DNA of 42,086 nt from a virus. Below the pieces are notes generated by a model. That model saw only the letters and a list, made by a program, of their open reading frames with translations, was not told the DNA's origin and did no database searches. The stretch is taken from IMG/VR virus record IMGVR_UViG_3300009506_000076, positions 1 through 42,086 of that record, one strand, 5' to 3'. The position numbers and the translations under genes were made by a program. Shown here in pieces: positions 12,891-41,902 of the stretch; the stretch's first letter is position 1; the number at the start of each line of letters is the position of its first letter.

Positions 12891-13514
12891 TTACACCTTG
12901 TGGAACAGCGCCGTGACTTGGATCGTGCCCTTGCGTAGCAGCCGCGGTTGCACGGGCAGCGACGCTCGCTGCTCGATTGGGATCGGCAGGAACTCAAACG
13001 GGCACGCGCCTGCGGTCGAGCCGTCCGTCTGCTGCACGACGTACCCGTTGTACAGCCAGTACGTGCAGATCGTCGCCGATTCGTTGATTGAGGTCAGCCC
13101 CACCGGGAACTGCCAGATTATCTCCCCAGGATGCGAATCTGGAAACCAGCCGCTAACGACCTGATTCACCTGCTGCGCGACCACCCATATCTGGACGTCG
13201 CCACCGCCCTGACCCACGGTCTTCTTCAGCAGGATCAGCTTCGCGCCCAGCGCGTCCGGCTCGATCAATACCGCAGTCGTGTCCGATGCGCCCCAGGTCA
13301 GGATCGCGCTGACGGGATCGCCAGCCGAGTCCTGCGGGTGCGCGACGACCTGCACCGTGTCGCCGACGTGGTACGGGCCATTCGACAGCACGTCGAGCGT
13401 GACGGCCACCAGATTGCCCTCGATCGTGATCGTCACGGTATCGGTAGCAGTCTGCCCGGCGGCCGGGACCGCCAACACCAGCGCGGCCACCATCGCCAGC
13501 AACAATCTCTTCAT
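12891..13514 (-). CDS. Secreted Ig-like domain protein
   Basis: 207 residues. The N-terminus MKRLLLAMVAALVLAVPAAG is a classic signal peptide (basic start, hydrophobic core, small-residue cleavage region before Gln). Residues about 24-115 look like a bacterial Ig-like (Big) domain: TVTITIEGNLVAVTLDVL, DTVQVVAHPQDSAGDPV, AILTWGASDTTAVL. The C-terminal part contains ATICTYWLYNGYVVQQTDG and two cysteines that could pair. The start overlaps the sigma factor stop (ATGA) and the stop lies 3 bases before the giant neck protein, so it is co-translated with both. A secreted protein here is unusual; it could modify the host surface (exclusion) or decorate the virion. Function not known. Confidence 0.7.
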   Translation of the reverse strand: MKRLLLAMVAALVLAVPAAGQTATDTVTITIEGNLVAVTLDVLSNGPYHVGDTVQVVAHPQDSAGDPVSAILTWGASDTTAVLIEPDALGAKLILLKKTVGQGGGDVQIWVVAQQVNQVVSGWFPDSHPGEIIWQFPVGLTSINESATICTYWLYNGYVVQQTDGSTAGACPFEFLPIPIEQRASLPVQPRLLRKGTIQVTALFHKV

Positions 13515-14368
13515 GACGCCTCCTTACAGTGAAATTCCTCGAATACATGGCGCCACCGCTTGCCTGTCTTAATCAGCGATAGCTGGCCTTCGGACAGCCC
13601 AATGCTGGCAGCGATCTCCTTCTGCGTCTCCTCACCGGACAGTAGCCGACGATGGATCATGCGGACGTGCTCCTCGTCGATCTTGCGCCGTGCGTTGCGT
13701 CTCCCATCAACCGGCCGGCGGCGTCTCGGAGTGGGTACGACGGAGACGGTCACGCCATAGTGGCGGCGTAGCTTGTCGAGCGCCTTCAGAGACACGGTGG
13801 ACGCGCCACTGGCGGTCAGCCCGTAGTCCCGGGACACATCGGCCGCGGTTCGCTCCTCAGCGTACCGACCCCAAACCAGCCCCCGCTCGCGCTCGGGCAG
13901 CACGGTCAACGCAAACTGCACATGCGCGGCCTCGTCTGCACGGACAACTTCATCCAGGGGAGACGGGGAGGGATCGCCAAGAACCTCGTGCAGTTGCAGC
14001 CCGACCTCGCTCGAGACGGCGCTCTCAAGGCTCATGGCAGGCAACATTCGGCGCGCTCGATACCCGTCGACGACGCGCCGCCATATCACGGTCGACGCGA
14101 ATCCGGGGAACCCGCCCCTAGCAGGGTCGTACGCGTCAACCGCCTCCACGACGCCGACCATCGCATCGGCGCGAGCGTCGTCCAGCTCCTGCACCCGCAG
14201 GTCGACCCTGGCATCCATGCAGCGGACCACCCACATCGCCAGCCGAACGTGCCCGAGTATCAACCTCTCTCTGGCGTGCGCGGATCCACATTGACGGTAC
14301 TCGCGGAATAGCTCGGCGACTTCGGCTCGCAACAAGCGCCGATACTGGAATGTACTACTCTGGCTCAT
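13511..14368 (-). CDS. RNA polymerase sigma-70 family factor with extra C-terminal HTH
   Basis: 285 residues. Residues about 31-105 correspond to sigma region 2 (RERLILGHVRLAMWVVRCMD, then DAMVGVVEAVDAYDPARGGF and ASTVIWRRVVDGYR). Residues 151-206 correspond to region 4 (LPERERGLVWGRYAEERTAA, DYGLTASGASTVSLKALDKL). An additional helix-turn-helix at about 229-275 (TQKEIAASIGLSEGQLSLIK) is of the type found in phage DNA-binding proteins and homing enzymes, joined by an Arg-rich linker. Region 3 is short or absent. It probably redirects host RNA polymerase to phage promoters. It lies within the head-tail operon, overlapping its neighbours on both sides (14 bases and ATGA). Confidence 0.88.
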   Translation of the reverse strand: MSQSSTFQYRRLLRAEVAELFREYRQCGSAHARERLILGHVRLAMWVVRCMDARVDLRVQELDDARADAMVGVVEAVDAYDPARGGFPGFASTVIWRRVVDGYRARRMLPAMSLESAVSSEVGLQLHEVLGDPSPSPLDEVVRADEAAHVQFALTVLPERERGLVWGRYAEERTAADVSRDYGLTASGASTVSLKALDKLRRHYGVTVSVVPTPRRRRPVDGRRNARRKIDEEHVRMIHRRLLSGEETQKEIAASIGLSEGQLSLIKTGKRWRHVFEEFHCKEAS

Positions 14369-14728: not shown

Positions 14729-15154
14729 TCAGCTTGCAGGCATCGTCACCGTTGCCGTACTGATCGTGACCTGCTGACCAGCTGCGATGCTGGTGTTGTC
14801 CAGCTCGAGATCGCCACCACCGCTGGTGGCCGTGACCGATCCCTCGATCCGCTCGTCCGTCGTACCAGTCGCACCACCCGTATCGCCGGACTGCTTGATA
14901 CGGAAGTGCGCCGCGGTGCCGGCAGCGTCGGCCGAAGCGTCCTGCCACGTACCGTTCAGCGAGAGCTGACCGTTGCCGCTCGACGGACCCGTGAAGCAGT
15001 CCGCTGGGAGGGTGATCGAAGCCAGAAGCGTACCCGCATCGGCCGCGTTCGCGCCCGGAGCCGCTCCCGTCCGGATCTCGAGCACCCCGTTGTTGAAGAT
15101 GTCCGTCGCCGTGGCAAGGACATCCCGGAGCGCACCAGAGATTTCGAGTGCCAT
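14729..15154 (-). CDS. Small virion-type protein (beta-rich)
   Basis: 141 residues, ribosome site CGGAGGTAAC before ATG. Opens MALEISGALRDVLATATDIF and continues VLEIRTGAAPGANAADAGTL, a pattern that recurs in siphophage proteins of the head-tail region annotated only as structural or hypothetical. The rest is rich in Gly, Thr, Ser and Ala with alternating beta strands and few charges, so it is probably a capsid or tail surface protein. It sits between connector genes and the membrane-protein/sigma cassette. No catalytic motif. Confidence 0.6.
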   Translation of the reverse strand: MALEISGALRDVLATATDIFNNGVLEIRTGAAPGANAADAGTLLASITLPADCFTGPSSGNGQLSLNGTWQDASADAAGTAAHFRIKQSGDTGGATGTTDERIEGSVTATSGGGDLELDNTSIAAGQQVTISTATVTMPAS

Positions 15155-15885: not shown

Positions 15886-16257
15886 TTACTCCTCTTCCTC
15901 TTCCTCACCTTCGAGGGCGTCCATGATCTTCTCGAAGGTGGGTTCCCCGATCCCCTTGACCTCGAGCAGTGACTCACCAGCGGCGGTCACCTTCTCGATC
16001 GTGTCGTATCCGGCCCGTAGGAGGTCGATACGTCCGGGGAATCCGGTCGGGAGCGGTGTAGCGTGGTCCGACGGCAGCATCTTCATGCCCCCGTCCCCCT
16101 TGCCACTCCATTCTCCCTCGATGGCGTTGCGCGCCGTGAGGTGATCGACCTGGTCCTGTGACAGGATCTTGTCGAGATCCTCTTCCTGGCCGGGCTTGAA
16201 TAGCCTCCGGCTTGCGTGTACCGCGCGAAGAATCTTCGGCGGTTGCTTCTTGGCCAT
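15886..16257 (-). CDS. Helix-hairpin-helix protein with acidic tail, head region
   Basis: 123 residues, ribosome site AAGGAGCAGAAGT before ATG. The C-terminal half (LLRAGYDTIEKVTAAGESLL then VKGIGEPTFEKIMDALEG) is a helix-hairpin-helix/SAM-like DNA-contact motif such as those in RNA polymerase alpha C-terminal domains and RuvA-type proteins. It ends in six to seven Glu residues. HhH proteins immediately after the capsid gene are known in several siphophages, probably at the head-tail joint near the DNA end, but the function is not established. It begins after a strong hairpin downstream of the capsid gene. Confidence 0.7.
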   Translation of the reverse strand: MAKKQPPKILRAVHASRRLFKPGQEEDLDKILSQDQVDHLTARNAIEGEWSGKGDGGMKMLPSDHATPLPTGFPGRIDLLRAGYDTIEKVTAAGESLLEVKGIGEPTFEKIMDALEGEEEEEE

Positions 16258-16274
16258 ACTTCTGCTCCTTCTTA

Positions 16275-16304
16275 CCCCCCGCCCGAATCAGCCCGGGCGG
16301 GGGG
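16275..16304 (-). terminator. Strong GC hairpin between capsid gene and connector genes (attenuator-like)
   Basis: A perfect 11-bp stem (CCCCCCGCCCG paired with CGGGCGGGGGG) with an 8-base loop lies between the major capsid stop and the next ribosome site. It has no T tract after it on the minus strand, so it is more likely a partial terminator or an mRNA-stabilising end that keeps capsid mRNA in excess over connector mRNA. Confidence 0.6.
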
Positions 16305-16334
16305 ATCGCTGAGAGAGTCGATGAAGAACGCCGC

Positions 16335-17399
16335 TTACACGCCGGCGTCGATGACGAACAGCACCTGCTCGTTCGGATCGGGCATGGGGTTGAACTGACC
16401 CTCGACGGTCAGCTCACGGCCGCCGTTCCCGATCTCATGGTAGATCGTGATCCCACGCACGTCGATGCCGGCCTGCGGCACCTGCGAGCTGAGGTCCCAC
16501 GCACGAACGACCGGAGCGAACGCCGTGGACCCCACGACGTTGCCGGCAGGCACCGCGGCGACCATCTGCTCCGGCCACACGTTCACGGACGACCGCGCGA
16601 TCCCACCGTCGGTATACGGCTCGACGGTGTTCTCGTTGATGAAGAACCGGAACGGGCGACCCAGCTCGTCCTGGATGCGCTGCTCGACCTGAGTCACGGT
16701 CGGCGTCAGGCCGGCGATGGCGCCAGCCATGGGGTTCGGCGCATCGGCGACGATGACGTTCCTCGTGGAGAGGCGCATCATCGCACCGGCCTGCGGCCCG
16801 CACGCCGCGAAGGCGTCCTGGAGCCAGGCCAGGAACTCGTCGTAGGCGTTGAGTCCCGCATCGTCCCAGGCGGTCGCCGCCGTCTGGTACCGAGTGGCAT
16901 CGAACCCGTAGTCGACGGTCGTGGTGAGTCCCGTCTGCGGGTTCATGTACGTGATGGTCCCGTTCGCCCAGGCGGACATCACGTCCAGCTCGAGCCGGCG
17001 GTAATTCGCGATCGCCAGCATGTCCGTGCGGTCCGGGATACGGGCCGCGATGATGTTGCGGAAGAGGGCCTGGTTACCCCGGACCTCGTTCAGGAGGTCG
17101 TTGATCTCCTTCTCCTCGAGCTTGAAGTATCCCTCGATCGGGATCCACTCGAGCTCTCGGGTCGGGGGCGTCACGAGGTTGATCAAACGACCCCTGGTGT
17201 TCCACTCACGCCGGTCGGTCACGATCCGCACATCCTGGGTCGTGAGCGACGACAGCTTCGTCATGTCCACATTGCGCCGTGGCATGAAGATGTCCCACAG
17301 AAGCCGACCCTGATCCGTCGGGTCGACCGTCTGTGCGCGGACGGTCAGAGCTGCCGGCGTCAGCTCCTCGGCCGCGGCCATCCAAGTGAAGTCCGGCAT
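16335..17399 (-). CDS. Major capsid protein (lambda gpE family)
   Basis: 354 residues, the usual length for gpE-type capsid proteins with the HK97 fold. Typical features are the start of the conserved arm (GRLLWDIFMPRRNVDMTKLS), REWNTRGRLINLVTPPTREL, KEINDLLNE, and the C-terminal VVRAWDLSSQVPQAGIDVRG with PNPMPDPNEQVL-like ending. A gpD-like decoration gene lies just upstream, as expected for this family. Start ATG is preceded by GGAGAAGCGGCA. The shell is formed around the scaffold protein encoded two genes upstream. Confidence 0.9.
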   Translation of the reverse strand: MPDFTWMAAAEELTPAALTVRAQTVDPTDQGRLLWDIFMPRRNVDMTKLSSLTTQDVRIVTDRREWNTRGRLINLVTPPTRELEWIPIEGYFKLEEKEINDLLNEVRGNQALFRNIIAARIPDRTDMLAIANYRRLELDVMSAWANGTITYMNPQTGLTTTVDYGFDATRYQTAATAWDDAGLNAYDEFLAWLQDAFAACGPQAGAMMRLSTRNVIVADAPNPMAGAIAGLTPTVTQVEQRIQDELGRPFRFFINENTVEPYTDGGIARSSVNVWPEQMVAAVPAGNVVGSTAFAPVVRAWDLSSQVPQAGIDVRGITIYHEIGNGGRELTVEGQFNPMPDPNEQVLFVIDAGV

Positions 17400-23543: not shown

Positions 23544-23573
23544 AGTATACCGAAGTCGTCGGGTGATTGTCAA
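23544..23573 (-). promoter_or_regulatory. Leftward promoter
   Basis: -35 TTGACA (23573-23568), 18-base spacer, -10 TATACT (23549-23544), preceded by CGG like other promoters in this phage. It reads into the four small genes before the terminase operon. Confidence 0.75.
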
Positions 23574-23687
23574 CAGGGTCGGAAGTGAAGTGAAATGAAG
23601 ATAAAGGAGTAGAAGTGAAATACTGGAATCAGAGGAGACACGCGGCGGTGGACAATTCGCAGGTTACAAAGACATATAATTATCGGG

Positions 23688-24266
23688 ATACCCCTATGTG
23701 GGGGTATGTATAAATACCCAACCCCCACCTGGTAACCTAACCCTATGTACCAGGTGGGGGTTGGGTTACACCCTACCTACAGGGTAGGGGGTACAAACCC
23801 TGGGGGTAGTTTAACACCCTTGGGTAGTTGGGTGGGGTTACACCCACCCTTAACCCAACTACGGTACTTGTACACCTGGGTACGGGTGGTGTAAAAGGTA
23901 ACCCCATTGGTAATACAGTGGTGGTACAACACCCTGGTTGGGGGTACCACGTTGTTGTTACCCAACGTAAGGTTACCACACCACACCCAAACCATACTAA
24001 CTGGGTGGGGTACCGTACTGGTACCCTTACGGTTTACTGGGGTGGTGGGGGTTGGGGGTACAAACGTAAACCCCACGGGTGGGGTTGGGGTACCTGTACC
24101 CTTGGTACCCTTGGGGGTACCCTTGGTACCCCGTTTGGTGGTGGTGTTACCCATTGGTGTTACCCTTGGTTGGGGGTTGGGTGGGTTAGGTACCCGTACA
24201 TACTACAAGTACCGTACCACAACCCCGTATGTGGGGGTACGTACCCGTAAGTGTATGTAACTACAT
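23688..24266. repeat. GA/TC/GC-free tract
   Basis: Read base by base, no GA, TC or GC dinucleotide occurs between 23688 and 24266. Every G run is followed by T and every C run is preceded by A, on both strands. It contains many GGTACC, GGTTACC-type words and runs of four to five G or C, including closely spaced G runs near 24038-24059 that could form G-quadruplexes. It is not a simple tandem repeat. Confidence 0.9.
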
Positions 24267-24373
24267 CACATAGGTGTATCCATATATAGTGGTTTGGTTG
24301 TGGTCCAATACTTGGCTCTGTAACAGTAGTACCACAAGTGTTGTACGTTTGTAGCAACGTGGTACCGCCACTA

Positions 24374-24485
24374 CAGGTGTCCACTCCAGTGTACAGTAGT
24401 TACCGCAGGTGTCCACTCCAGGCGCCAGCAGCAGTGTCCACTTTAGGGTACTCAAGTAGTACATCAGGTGTCCACTTCTGGCGCC
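24374..24485. repeat. Four copies of CAGGTGTCCACTYCNGG
   Basis: Copies at 24374-24389, 24406-24421, 24432-24443 (shorter, CAGTGTCCACTTT) and 24465-24485 (followed by CGCC). Spacing is 26 to 33 bases. Copies two and four share the continuation GGCGCC. Confidence 0.7.
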
Positions 24486-24590
24486 ATGTATCTACGCCGT
24501 ATCCATGTATCCACCGTGTATCCAGTGTATCTGCGCTGTATCCATGTATCTGTCGCAGATCCATGTATCCGCCGCATATCCAGTGTGTCG
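24486..24590. repeat. Imperfect tandem GTATCCATG-type repeats
   Basis: About ten short units of the form (G/A)TATCC(A)(T)GTATC(C/T) with interspersed CGCC or CGC, for example CCATGTATCCACCGTGTATC. The unit length is about 9-12 bases and irregular. Confidence 0.65.
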
Positions 24591-24632
24591 TTTCGACACA
24601 GCAGCCCGCAGCCGCAGCCGCCGTCGCAGGGC

Positions 24633-24779
24633 GATTTTTCATCCTCGGATTTTTCATCCTTCGGATTTTTCAGCCGCAGGATCCGCCGCATGCGGATTTT
24701 TCATCCTCGGCTCATGCTCCCGCCGCCTTGCGATTTTTCAGCAGCAGCCGCTAGCTCCGTATCTTAAGGATTTTTCATC
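24633..24779. repeat. Six GATTTTTCA(T/G)C iterons, direct orientation
   Basis: Exact 9-base cores at 24633, 24648, 24664, 24695, 24732 and 24769, all in the same orientation, mostly followed by TC or GC. Further copies occur at 26421, 26433, 26494 and, as looser variants, around 30006-30065. All are outside genes, so they look like protein-binding sites. Confidence 0.85.
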
Positions 24780-24800
24780 GACACACACACAGATCAAGTC

Positions 24801-24881: not shown

Positions 24882-25232
24882 CTACGGAGCAGGCTTAGTC
24901 GCGTAGTTGTTCAGCACCTTCAACATCTGTACAGCACAGTCGGACTGGTACTCACCAGGCACGCCTCTGACTCGCATCATTACCTCGAAAGCGTCGCCAT
25001 ATTTCAGGTCCTGGTCCTCATCCATGGCGCTGGTGTAATACTCTTCCATGTCATCCCGGTACATATCCAGCAGGTTGTCGCCATGGATCTGTATCGCCAC
25101 CTCGAGCTCGCCCTTCACACTCGTGGGCATCGTCGTCCTGTCGAGCATCCTCACGATCGCAGGCATCCACATCAGCCACTGGCTCAGGTTGGTGTATCTG
25201 CTCTGCACGTCCTGCTTCGATATCGCGCTCAT
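24882..25232 (-). CDS. Small acidic hypothetical protein
   Basis: 116 residues, MSAISKQDVQSRYTNLSQWL onward, ribosome site AAAAGGAGCC before ATG. Helical and Met-rich, with MYRDDMEEYYTSAMDEDQDL and the C-terminal GEYQSDCAVQMLKVLNNYA. It is the last gene of the leftward small-gene block and is followed by a terminator. No family recognised; an early host-takeover protein is plausible from the context only. Confidence 0.7.
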   Translation of the reverse strand: MSAISKQDVQSRYTNLSQWLMWMPAIVRMLDRTTMPTSVKGELEVAIQIHGDNLLDMYRDDMEEYYTSAMDEDQDLKYGDAFEVMMRVRGVPGEYQSDCAVQMLKVLNNYATKPAP

Positions 25233-26378: not shown

Positions 26379-26400
26379 CCGCTAGCTGAGTCGCTAGCGG
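26379..26400. repeat. Inverted repeat CCGCTAGC / GCTAGCGG
   Basis: Perfect 8-bp arms with a 6-base centre (TGAGTC), each arm containing the palindrome GCTAGC. Part of the intergenic GCTAGC family. Confidence 0.7.
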
Positions 26401-26420
26401 ATCATGCTGCGGGCATCTAG

Positions 26421-26504
26421 GATTTTTCATCGGATTTTTCATCTTACTGCGTAGCAAGATGCGGACAATGAAGCCGCTAGCGGAACGCATCTGGATTTTT
26501 CATC
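26421..26504. repeat. Three GATTTTTCATC iterons
   Basis: Exact copies at 26421-26431, 26433-26443 and 26494-26504, same orientation as the six copies at 24633-24779. Confidence 0.85.
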
Positions 26505-26510
26505 CGGCGC

Positions 26511-26540
26511 AAAAAGATCCCCCCGGCCGGAGCCGGGGGG
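26511..26540 (-). terminator. Intrinsic terminator
   Basis: 9-bp GC stem (26519-26527 with 26532-26540) and CGGA-type tetraloop, followed on the minus strand by ATCTTTTT. It ends the single-gene unit 27054-26572. Confidence 0.9.
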
Positions 26541-26571: not shown

Positions 26572-27054
26572 TCAGCCGTTCGCTTCCGCCAGCTCGTCGA
26601 GCGCCTCACGGACGCTCTTCGGCAGCCCCGTGAGCTGCGTCAGGGGCACCCGCCCGCCGTCGGTCGCCTTGTACCACGCCTGATACTGCGTCCGGGCGGT
26701 GTGGTAGGCGATCCCGTTCTGCACGAGGGTGTCGCAGACCACGCTGCGCCGCGGCTTGTCCTTGCCCGCGGCCTCGGCCTCGCGGACCATGTTCTCGGCA
26801 CCGAGCCAGACCTTGGCGACCGGATGGTTGACCTTGGACTGGCGGAGGATCTCCGGCTTCACCGGAGGCGCCGGGAACTTCGCGTAGATGGCCTCGCCGA
26901 GCTCCTGCTTCGTGCCCTTGGCGACGATGTCGTCCCCGACGTTGACGATGGCGGCCATCTCCTTGAGGTCGGCCTTCGAGGTGCCCTTGACGAACTCCTC
27001 GATGGGGGTGGACTGGACCTGCTGGCGGATGCTGCTGGTGTCCTGGGTGCTCAT
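26572..27054 (-). CDS. Putative DNA-binding protein with the TQYxxW domain
   Basis: 160 residues, MSTQDTSSIRQQVQSTPIEE onward, CAAGGAGCC before ATG 27054. The C-terminal part (RRSVVCDTLVQNGIAYHTAR then TQYQAWYKATDG) shares a pattern with the proteins at 39728 and 40779: a helix with VCD or ICDEL, then a second helix A(R/K)TQ(Y/F)xxW. This looks like a small HTH or winged-helix unit. The N-terminal 80 residues are a separate charged helical domain (FVKGTSKADLKEMAAIVNVG). It is alone in its transcript, between promoter and terminator, so it is probably strongly expressed. Confidence 0.7.
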   Translation of the reverse strand: MSTQDTSSIRQQVQSTPIEEFVKGTSKADLKEMAAIVNVGDDIVAKGTKQELGEAIYAKFPAPPVKPEILRQSKVNHPVAKVWLGAENMVREAEAAGKDKPRRSVVCDTLVQNGIAYHTARTQYQAWYKATDGGRVPLTQLTGLPKSVREALDELAEANG

Positions 27055-27097
27055 TGTGTTGGCTCCTTGGCCACGGGTGAGTAACATCGTACACTAT

Positions 27098-29749: not shown

Positions 29750-30079
29750 CTTGGCTCCTTACCTCGGTGAACGTGTACCATCCATCTATACCAAGGTAAC
29801 GGGAGCAACGTGCGACAGACAAGAAGTAAAACGTGAGGAATTTATTCGAGAGCCTGCCGCAGGAGGCGATCCTGGGCGGCGCCGCAAGAGACGCATCTAG
29901 CAACACATCTAGCGGACACGCATCGGGTGTGAGGCTGCGATGGCTGACGAGAAGGGAAACCAGCGACTGCGACACTCCTGGCTCTGCGCCGGCGCCGTAC
30001 ACGTGATTTTCACGCGATTTTCAGCCCTGGGATTTTTCATTGAGATTTTCAATCGGGATTTTCAAAACCGATTAGGCTC
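29750..30079. other. Gene-free stretch with promoter and iteron variants
   Basis: 330 bases without a gene: a leftward promoter (29793-29822), CTAG-containing words near 29895-29915, and at 30004-30068 five GATTTTCA-type elements (one exact GATTTTTCAT, others with one T fewer) resembling the iterons at 24633-24779. Confidence 0.65.
29793..29822 (-). promoter_or_regulatory. Leftward promoter
   Basis: -35 TTGTCT (29822-29817), 18-base spacer, -10 TACCTT (29798-29793). An overlapping TATAGA further downstream is an alternative -10 without a matching -35. Confidence 0.5.
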
Positions 30080-30572: not shown

Positions 30573-30781
30573 CTTGATTTCCGTTGTGGCACAGTAACTT
30601 CCTATTTAATGTATAAAGAGTATAAAGGTATAAAGGGGGTATATATAGACTGTGTGATGGACACGTTCTTGACGTACCCCCACCCGTGTATAGGGGGTGT
30701 TATCCCTACAACACATACCTGCGCGCCTTGCAAGTTGTTGTGCCACATACAGATACAGGTTTCAGAATTACGCCTTCACCC

Positions 30782-39727: not shown

Positions 39728-40132
39728 ATGCCAGTCCGGTTGGATTCACTTCCCGATAACTCGTACTTCGGCATCGCGTGGCGACCGGGAGCTTTCGGTC
39801 ACCTGAAGCGTGTCGGAGCGGGTTCCTGTAGCGTGTACGTACCCAAGCGCGAAGGCGGATGGGAAGACACGCAATGGGCGGGTGGCAGTGAGGTAGAGCC
39901 TGCTACCGAAGAGCAGTTCAAACGTCAGGATTCCAATACGACCACTGACGGGAAGCCTCGAGAGCGTAGCGAGGTTGAGAACCCCGTAAAGCTCGTATGG
40001 AAGCTCTGCGACGAGATGTGGCCCTGCGAACGTGACGACATTGTGAAGGCTGCTGTCGAGCAGGGTGTCAACATCAGCACGGCGAAGACTCAGTTCTACG
40101 CCTGGAAGAAAAAGATCGGGAGATGGCTATGA
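39728..40132 (+). CDS. Putative DNA-binding protein with the TQ(F/Y)xxW domain
   Basis: 134 residues, MPVRLDSLPDNSYFGIAWRP onward, AAGGAACC before ATG. The N-terminal 45 residues are a beta domain. The C-terminal half (VKLVWKLCDEMWPCERDDIV then KAAVEQGVNISTAKTQFYAW) shares its pattern with the proteins at 26572 and 40779, most likely a small HTH or winged-helix unit. It follows its own promoter. Confidence 0.62.
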   Translation: MPVRLDSLPDNSYFGIAWRPGAFGHLKRVGAGSCSVYVPKREGGWEDTQWAGGSEVEPATEEQFKRQDSNTTTDGKPRERSEVENPVKLVWKLCDEMWPCERDDIVKAAVEQGVNISTAKTQFYAWKKKIGRWL

Positions 40133-40778: not shown

Positions 40779-41102
40779 ATGGCGAAGAAGCAGAAGGAGA
40801 AGGAGGAGGCCGCGGCCACCGAGGCGCCCGCCGCCGAGGCGACCACCACGAAGATGCCCTCGCAGAACGGCGTCACCCGTCCGAAGCCGGACACGGCGAC
40901 CGGCCGCGTGTGGGCGATCTGCGACGAGCTGTCGGCGAGCACCGGCAAGCCTGCCGTCCGCGGAGACGTGATGAAGGCCGGTGAAGCCGAGGGCCTGAAC
41001 CCCGCCACGATCGCGACGCAGTACGGCCGGTGGCGGAAGTTCCACAACCTGGGGCGCTACAAGGACGTGCCGGCCGAGGACGCCGCCCAGGTCCAGGAGT
41101 AG
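40779..41102 (+). CDS. Putative DNA-binding protein with the TQYxxW domain, Ala/Lys-rich N-terminus
   Basis: 107 residues, GGAGATGCAAC before ATG. Residues 1-35 are Lys/Glu/Ala/Thr rich and disordered (MAKKQKEKEEAAATEAPAAE). Residues 38-95 (GRVWAICDELSASTGKPAVR, GLNPATIATQYGRWRKFHNL) are the third copy of the pattern seen at 26572 and 39728. The GC-rich codon use here is more extreme than in neighbours. Two hairpins follow. Confidence 0.65.
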   Translation: MAKKQKEKEEAAATEAPAAEATTTKMPSQNGVTRPKPDTATGRVWAICDELSASTGKPAVRGDVMKAGEAEGLNPATIATQYGRWRKFHNLGRYKDVPAEDAAQVQE

Positions 41103-41194: not shown

Positions 41195-41902
41195 ATGAAA
41201 ACGAATCAGCAAGCACCCCTTCCGGTGTCGCGCGATGCTGAAGGACGGGTCCTCCTGAACAGTGTCTTTCACACGGTTCAGGGTGAAGGTCCATTCGCAG
41301 GTCAGGTCGCAATCTTTTTGCGTCTCTCCGGGTGCAACCTCCAATGCCCCTTCTGCGACACGGAATACAGCAAAGTCATCTATGATGGCAAGCCGGAGTT
41401 TATTCGGCGCTACCTCGATGTTGTCTACCCGGACATCAAGCTCGTTGTGATCACAGGCGGAGAACCTTTCCGCCAGAACATCACGCCCCTGGTCAACGAG
41501 CTCCTGAACCACCAGCGTCGTGTTCAGATCGAAACCAACGGCACCCTCTTTCCCGGCGCTGACTTTCCCTGGTCCAAAGTCACCGTCGTGTGCAGTCCGA
41601 AGACCGGGAAGATACATCCACAGACGGCTAAATTAGTCGCCGCGTACAAGTACGTTCTCTCCCACGACTCGGTAGGGGGCGACGGGTTACCGAACCAAGC
41701 CCTCGGCCACACACTAGGGGCTGCCAGCAAGGTTGCCCGGCCCCCTGTAGGGTGGGAAGGTCCGGTGTACCTGCAACCCATGGATGCACGCGACAACGAC
41801 GAGAATGCAAGAAACATTCAAGCCGTCGTCAAGTCTGTTATGGACGCTCGTGGCAAGTACATCATGGGTGTCCAGATGCACAAGCTGAGTGGACTACCAT
41901 GA
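41195..41902 (+). CDS. queE: QueE, 7-carboxy-7-deazaguanine synthase (radical SAM)
   Basis: 235 residues. QueE converts 6-carboxy-5,6,7,8-tetrahydropterin to 7-carboxy-7-deazaguanine, the second last step towards preQ0. Seen: HTVQGEGPFAGQVAIFLRLS, then the radical SAM cluster C47, C51, C54 (SGCNLQCPFCDTEYS), GGEP (88-91, SAM binding) and ETNG (113-116). Length is normal. Start MKTNQQAPLP at 41195 has no visible Shine-Dalgarno, which is odd among these genes; a GTG at 41225 is an alternative. Phage-borne queE genes supply preQ0 for tRNA or, more often in phages, for DNA modification by a DpdA-type transglycosylase, which is not in the window but may lie to the right. Confidence 0.93.
   Translation: MKTNQQAPLPVSRDAEGRVLLNSVFHTVQGEGPFAGQVAIFLRLSGCNLQCPFCDTEYSKVIYDGKPEFIRRYLDVVYPDIKLVVITGGEPFRQNITPLVNELLNHQRRVQIETNGTLFPGADFPWSKVTVVCSPKTGKIHPQTAKLVAAYKYVLSHDSVGGDGLPNQALGHTLGAASKVARPPVGWEGPVYLQPMDARDNDENARNIQAVVKSVMDARGKYIMGVQMHKLSGLP

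Follow-up and report, generated by a model that had tools for sequence, protein, structure and literature searches.

A small phage gene unit free of GA, TC and GC on both strands: possible avoidance of the phage's own 7-deazaguanine modification

Which force could remove every GA, TC and GC from one stretch of a phage genome that is otherwise full of them? The DNA analysed here, hereafter the window, is one entire IMG/VR virus record, a linear fragment of 42,086 bp that holds 2,935 GA, 3,249 TC and 3,406 GC. The initial annotation had pointed to a 579-base tract (23688-24266) without any of the three, and a direct count gave exactly that (GA = 0, TC = 0, GC = 0); the 12 GA that it reported in the neighbouring bases 23581-23640 were likewise found on reading the sequence. 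GA, TC and GC together form one strand-symmetric motif, G before A or C, for which we use the shorthand GM, and the symmetry proposed earlier is real, since the banned set is closed under reverse complement. The runner-up run free of these dinucleotides in the window has 48 nt, the GA rho of the window is 1.22 and the genome outside the unit is rich in GM. Under a first-order Markov model built from the rest of the window, the tract has a log10 P of about -104, and each ban is needed separately: banning only the other two would leave an expectation of 48 TC, 50 GA or 65 GC, corresponding to single-ban log10 P values of -26, -27 and -36, respectively. The other 13 dinucleotides fit a maximum-entropy chain defined by the tract composition and the ban (chi2 11.0, 13 cells, 3 fitted), and therefore no additional telomere-like or G-quadruplex rule is at work. 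The GC content of the tract is 54%, against 40% predicted from filtering alone. A nucleotide search of the tract against cultured phages gave no match.

The tract had been regarded as a non-coding landmark or protein-contact site. This idea had to be abandoned, because the tract is a small gene unit, composed of a leader, a 125-codon gene and a terminator, and the gene is homologous to ordinary genes. The parts of the unit are the following:

23688-24266, unstranded: GM-free tract, 579 nt, both strands without G before A or C
24267-24405, unstranded: GM-poor upstream shoulder (9 GM in 23688-24405)
23777-24154, minus strand: purged gene, 125 aa (P0001), ATG start and TAG stop, no Ala, Asp or Glu
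24155-24266, minus strand: leader of 112 nt, also GM-free
24163-24167, minus strand: AAGGG, recoded Shine-Dalgarno sequence (AGGAG here in ordinary homologues)
23716-23766, minus strand: perfect 19-bp hairpin 3' of the stop codon, GM-free, likely the terminator (-50 kcal/mol with flanks, z -4.3)

A second phage with a purged gene, L279 (IMGVR_UViG_3300009173_000135), was found by a primase-based scan, and the Shine-Dalgarno context AAGGG(G)TAACACC(A)ATGGGTAA is common to both phages. Strict absence of GM covers 112 nt of leader, the gene and 89 nt past the stop codon in the window, and 98 nt, the gene and 69 nt in L279; a looser depletion reaches upstream. Both purged proteins lack Ala, Asp and Glu completely, and their homologues contain 15-25 Ala, 2-5 Asp and 1-11 Glu. 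At the corresponding positions, Ala most often gives way to Thr (46 cases) or Val (16), Asp to Asn (6), and Glu mostly to Thr (16) rather than Lys (3); the serine codon TCG of the homologues becomes AGT and the stop codon is TAG. The purge of GM costs the coding sequence its Ala, Asp and Glu. The two purged genes differ at 40, 31 and 63 sites in codon positions 1, 2 and 3, a pattern which indicates that they evolve as coding DNA. The predicted model of the protein shows three helices in its C-terminal part (mean pLDDT of 70, from a shallow alignment); a fold search of this model against solved structures returned no significant match, and neither purged protein fell into a Pfam or PHROGs family at E up to 1. 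As a guess, the 125-aa protein may be helix-turn-helix-like and bind DNA.

The comparison with L279 bears directly on whether the rule is maintained. Its tract (15906-16450) spans 545 nt with 0 GM, or 715 nt if two exceptions are allowed, and occupies the same place as that of the window, following similar repeats and directly preceding a promoter. The two tracts are homologous: their local alignment score is 118, against a maximum of 57 among simulated rule-abiding sequences, the blastn E value is 1e-12, and the purged protein of the window shares 54% identity with the ORF of the L279 tract. The alignment shows 55.7% identity over 526 columns, with 233 differences. The same number of random substitutions would create 87±6 GM, and none is present in either tract. 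Persistence of the rule under sequence drift had been put forward as a test in the initial annotation, and this outcome shows that the GM-free state is actively maintained across a deep divergence. Ordinary homologues of the gene, namely two copies in G004, one in G006 and a second copy in L279, carry 61-102 GM each and are about 40% identical to the purged protein; family members at the locus range from 36 to 54%. In tblastn, the purged protein retrieved copy 2 of G004 (E 5e-22) and the G006 gene (E 1e-15). The homologues at the syntenic place are copy 1 of G004, with 77 GM, and the G006 gene, with 61 GM: L279 16397-16715 matches G004 43014-42696 (77%), which adjoins copy 1, and the gene order in G006 is identical. 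This homology and the location ahead of the late promoter, which is syntenic with that in the relatives, place the purged gene in the family of the ordinary homologues, the TARTQ-domain small proteins. Further relatives of this domain are encoded in the window at 26572-27087, 39728-40132 and 40779-41102, two of which sit just upstream of queE (phrog_18634, phrog_7864). The gene at 24882-25232 is common only to the two purged phages, and in L279 it is not adjacent to the tract.

To the left of the unit, late genes lie on the minus strand and include the small and large terminase, capsid and tape measure; to its right are found the primase, a Sak4-like ATPase, a ResIII helicase and queE. The features of this neighbourhood that are relevant here are:

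23544-23573, minus strand: TTGACA-18-TATACT, probably the promoter from which the late operon directly downstream is transcribed
24369-24486, unstranded: GTGTCCAC repeats, located upstream of the gene unit
24609-24784, unstranded: GATTTTTCATC-type repeats, upstream; similar repeats precede the L279 tract
30601-30721, unstranded: small GM-poor stretch between the primase and the PDDEXK-type nuclease (7 GM vs 20 expected)
41195-41902, plus strand: queE, whose product shares 48-50% identity with QueE of Seurat/CAjan/9g-type phages; the contig stops directly behind this gene

The counterpart promoter of L279, TTGACA-18-TATATT at 16523-16552, has the same arrangement. A phage-encoded sigma-70-type factor with regions 2 and 4 (13511-14368) lies inside the late operon of the window. 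Intergenic repeats of the GATTTTTCATC, GCTAGC and GGATCAAGATCC types are numerous in the window (24600-24800, 26400-26520 and 30000-30065) as well as in G004 and L279, and are typical of this phage group. The gene for the PDDEXK-type nuclease, a weak match, is conserved near the primase and is found also in G001/G006. In G001, DNA polymerase A (L087:8864-11803) appears to carry an intein-like insert, with Pfam DNA_pol_A in two stretches.

The search for dpdA and queC/D next to queE that the initial annotation had proposed found these genes in the relatives, and for the window itself the contig stops after queE, before the position of dpdA. In G001 and G004, which are syntenic with the window, queC, queD, folE and dpdA come after queE, which completes the folE-queD-queC-queE-dpdA pathway, and L096, which is conspecific with L279 (99.9% over 3,959 nt), has dpdA too. 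DpdA is about 50% identical to the enzymes that insert 7-deazaguanine in Escherichia phages.

Loss of GM could also be looked for beyond this gene. The 9,062 ORFs of about 300 loci include only two purged genes, that of the window and that of L279 (0 GM observed, 74 and 71 expected), and the next-ranked ORF is another one of the same L279 island (z -5.0). Islands poor in GM, defined by a 150-nt window with z below -3, were detected in 6 of the 10 family contigs, in 4 of 110 other QueE/DpdA loci and in 0 of 56 controls. The intergenic place homologous to the primase-nuclease stretch of the window is GM-poor also in G015 and G001/G006; the G015 island (L121:8172-8322, equivalent to G015:19172-19322) is a 151-nt intergenic sequence with 3 GM vs 25.5 expected and CCCTTATAC-type repeats, and is a possible replication origin. 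In L279, a large intergenic palindrome (14770-14920) has GM-free arms of 66 and 63 nt and a loop that is not GM-free. The genome of CAjan (NC_028776) has an unannotated 630-nt gap at 49963-50592, with CCCTATA repeats and four of the six longest GM-free runs of the genome, and this GM-poor region is weak, with a run of 66 nt; the cultured DpdA phages VPv64, ply2008005c, Me-ZS1 and M39 showed no strong island or comparable tract. Islands free of GA at first looked enriched in 7-deazaguanine phages. A general intergenic avoidance of GA in such phages was rejected, since many of the islands are coding tails rich in proline, alanine or glutamine, and pooled intergenic GA did not differ between 7-deazaguanine phages and controls. 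Gene-bounded intergenic stretches of 117-271 nt with low or zero GA/TC were seen at L252:15394-15560, L192:18468-18634, L151:14387-14524, L137:13227-13343, L134:11800-11930 and L061:3012-3282, mostly in QueE/DpdA phages; the L061 contig, with the strongest other non-coding island, had no detectable QueC or DpdA, in a DpdA search run without a positive control, which likewise told against a general avoidance. Palindromes of 4 and 6 bases in the family had observed/expected ratios of 0.98 and 0.78 when they contained GM and of 0.95 and 0.81 when GM-free, which gives no sign of a protection specific to GM, and the avoidance was no stronger than in controls.

A force that acts on DNA fits best, because reverse complementation leaves the banned set unchanged and none of its members is dispensable. 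As the leading cause we propose, tentatively and from sequence comparisons, that the unit avoids a modified or damaged base at each G followed by A or C, a base which would most likely be the 7-deazaguanine inserted by the DpdA of the phage. An island free of modification is the leading explanation because the phage group carries the whole 7-deazaguanine pathway, including dpdA; it is favoured also because the GM-poor islands concentrate in the family contigs (6 of 10) and because the 7-deazaguanine motif of Escherichia phage CAjan, GA and GGC (PMC8306585), has the same form of G before A or C. It has been suggested that 7-deazaguanine hinders sigma and transcription factors which read the N7 of G (PMC6884629). 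Virion DNA would already be modified on entry into the cell, and a unit without target dinucleotides would permanently stay ordinary DNA, so that the RNA polymerase of the host could read it at once or a protein with affinity for DNA, perhaps the helix-turn-helix-like product of the gene itself, could bind it at once; the coding sequence would pay for this with the loss of Ala, Asp and Glu. It is possible, then, though we hold it with some reserve, that the phage has deleted the target dinucleotide from both strands of one gene unit and given up three amino acids of the protein for it, which would make the unit chemically invisible to the phage's own genome-wide modification and let this unit, and no other, always be read as unmodified DNA. 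Several results weaken the modification reading in its simple form. All GC was lost, not GGC alone, and the CAjan motif falls short at this point, where the initial annotation had already called the loss of GC stricter than GGC requires: 57 GC should occur (P about 1e-27). The locus is not GM-free in all phages with the same DpdA, since G004 has an ordinary copy with 77 GM there, even though its DpdA and that of the L279 species share 91% identity. In addition, the CAjan region is weak and four cultured DpdA phages have no strong island, palindromes give no sign of GM-specific protection, the purge is confined to one gene and the window contig ends before dpdA. The unpurged G004 gene and the loss of all GC imply that either the need for an unmodified unit differs among phages or the cause is another one.

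Among the other causes, a targeted mutation process, in which a deaminase-like or repair-coupled mutator hits C after G or T within the unit too often for such sites to last and the protein has adapted to what remains, would account for a single dinucleotide context on both strands with sharp edges, and for the replacement of Ala mostly by Thr or Val and of Asp by Asn, each one transition away. We consider it unlikely, since a purge by C-to-T and G-to-A changes would lower the GC content to about 27%, against 54% in the tract and 51-62% in the leaders and 3' ends; moreover, Glu was mostly replaced by Thr rather than Lys, the change of the Shine-Dalgarno sequence from GGAGC to GGGGT includes an A-to-G step, and no mutator gene was found. 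Escape from a phage or host endonuclease that cuts or nicks unmodified G before A or C would require that the unit be exposed unmodified, for instance as the first-entering or last-modified DNA, so that it lost its sites. The rule at the DNA level, its strand symmetry and the PDDEXK-type nuclease gene conserved near the primase agree with such an escape, to which we nevertheless assign a low probability: the nuclease match is weak and occurs also in the unpurged G001/G006, and the remaining genome is full of GM. We know of no nuclease with a dinucleotide motif of this kind.

Selection on the transcript, by which cleavage or modification of RNA at GA, GC and UC is avoided, draws support from the extent of the strict part, which covers leader, gene and terminator and is thus roughly a transcript. 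It seems improbable, because UC is as strictly absent as GA (48 expected, 0 found), closure under reverse complement is not required of RNA, and the depletion reaches further upstream. The G and C runs, the 19-bp hairpin, the place upstream of the terminase genes and the TACCCTT repeats (6 vs 1.9 expected, p 0.005) could recall a structural element such as an origin, a packaging site, a telomere-like or G-quadruplex array or a structured non-coding RNA. This explanation is highly improbable and appears mostly refuted by the protein homology, as an ORF homologous to ordinary genes fills most of the tract; the dinucleotides reflect only ban and composition, the folding excess comes solely from the terminator hairpin, an Rfam search of the tract had no match and the TACCCTT repeats are not conserved in L279. 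The telomere-like, G-quadruplex and restriction-site ideas of the initial annotation therefore receive no support from the dinucleotide fit, the folding or the palindrome statistics. Finally, a composition so unusual might raise the suspicion of mis-assembly or of synthetic or spike-in DNA, an artefact whose probability is practically nil and which is in practice refuted by a diverged second copy from an independent metagenome, at the same place and with a homologous protein.

Whatever its cause, the purged unit makes a hidden force that acts on phage DNA readable from sequence only. Should the phage's own 7-deazaguanine be that force, G before A or C would be the predicted target of a DpdA not yet characterised, and the unit would show that a phage can pay for such modification at a particular locus. 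We know of no single natural gene, and our literature searches found none, in which both strands of the gene, its leader and its terminator lack an entire class of dinucleotides; recoding of a natural gene under such a ban, with the loss of three amino acids, is to our knowledge without precedent. The avoidance of restriction sites in phages is similar in that a short DNA motif is lost by selection against an enzyme that reads it, and different in that the loss seen here concerns a dinucleotide, is total and is limited to one gene unit. With the small phage proteins of the GVAYYTARTQVQ-W domain (phrog_18634/phrog_7864-type), the purged protein shares 36-54% identity at the locus, although the purged members are without Ala, Asp and Glu and escape PHROG and Pfam. 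The nearest system is the 7-deazaguanine modification of CAjan, which differs in that this phage has no purged gene and a weak GM-poor region, and in that its motif has GGC where the tract lacks all GC. In turn, the relatives of the window have the same pathway and a homologous DpdA, CAjan has a replication module (helicase, Cas4-type exonuclease, Sak4 and primase) beside queE as in the window, and both the GA/GGC motif and the banned dinucleotides place G before A or C.
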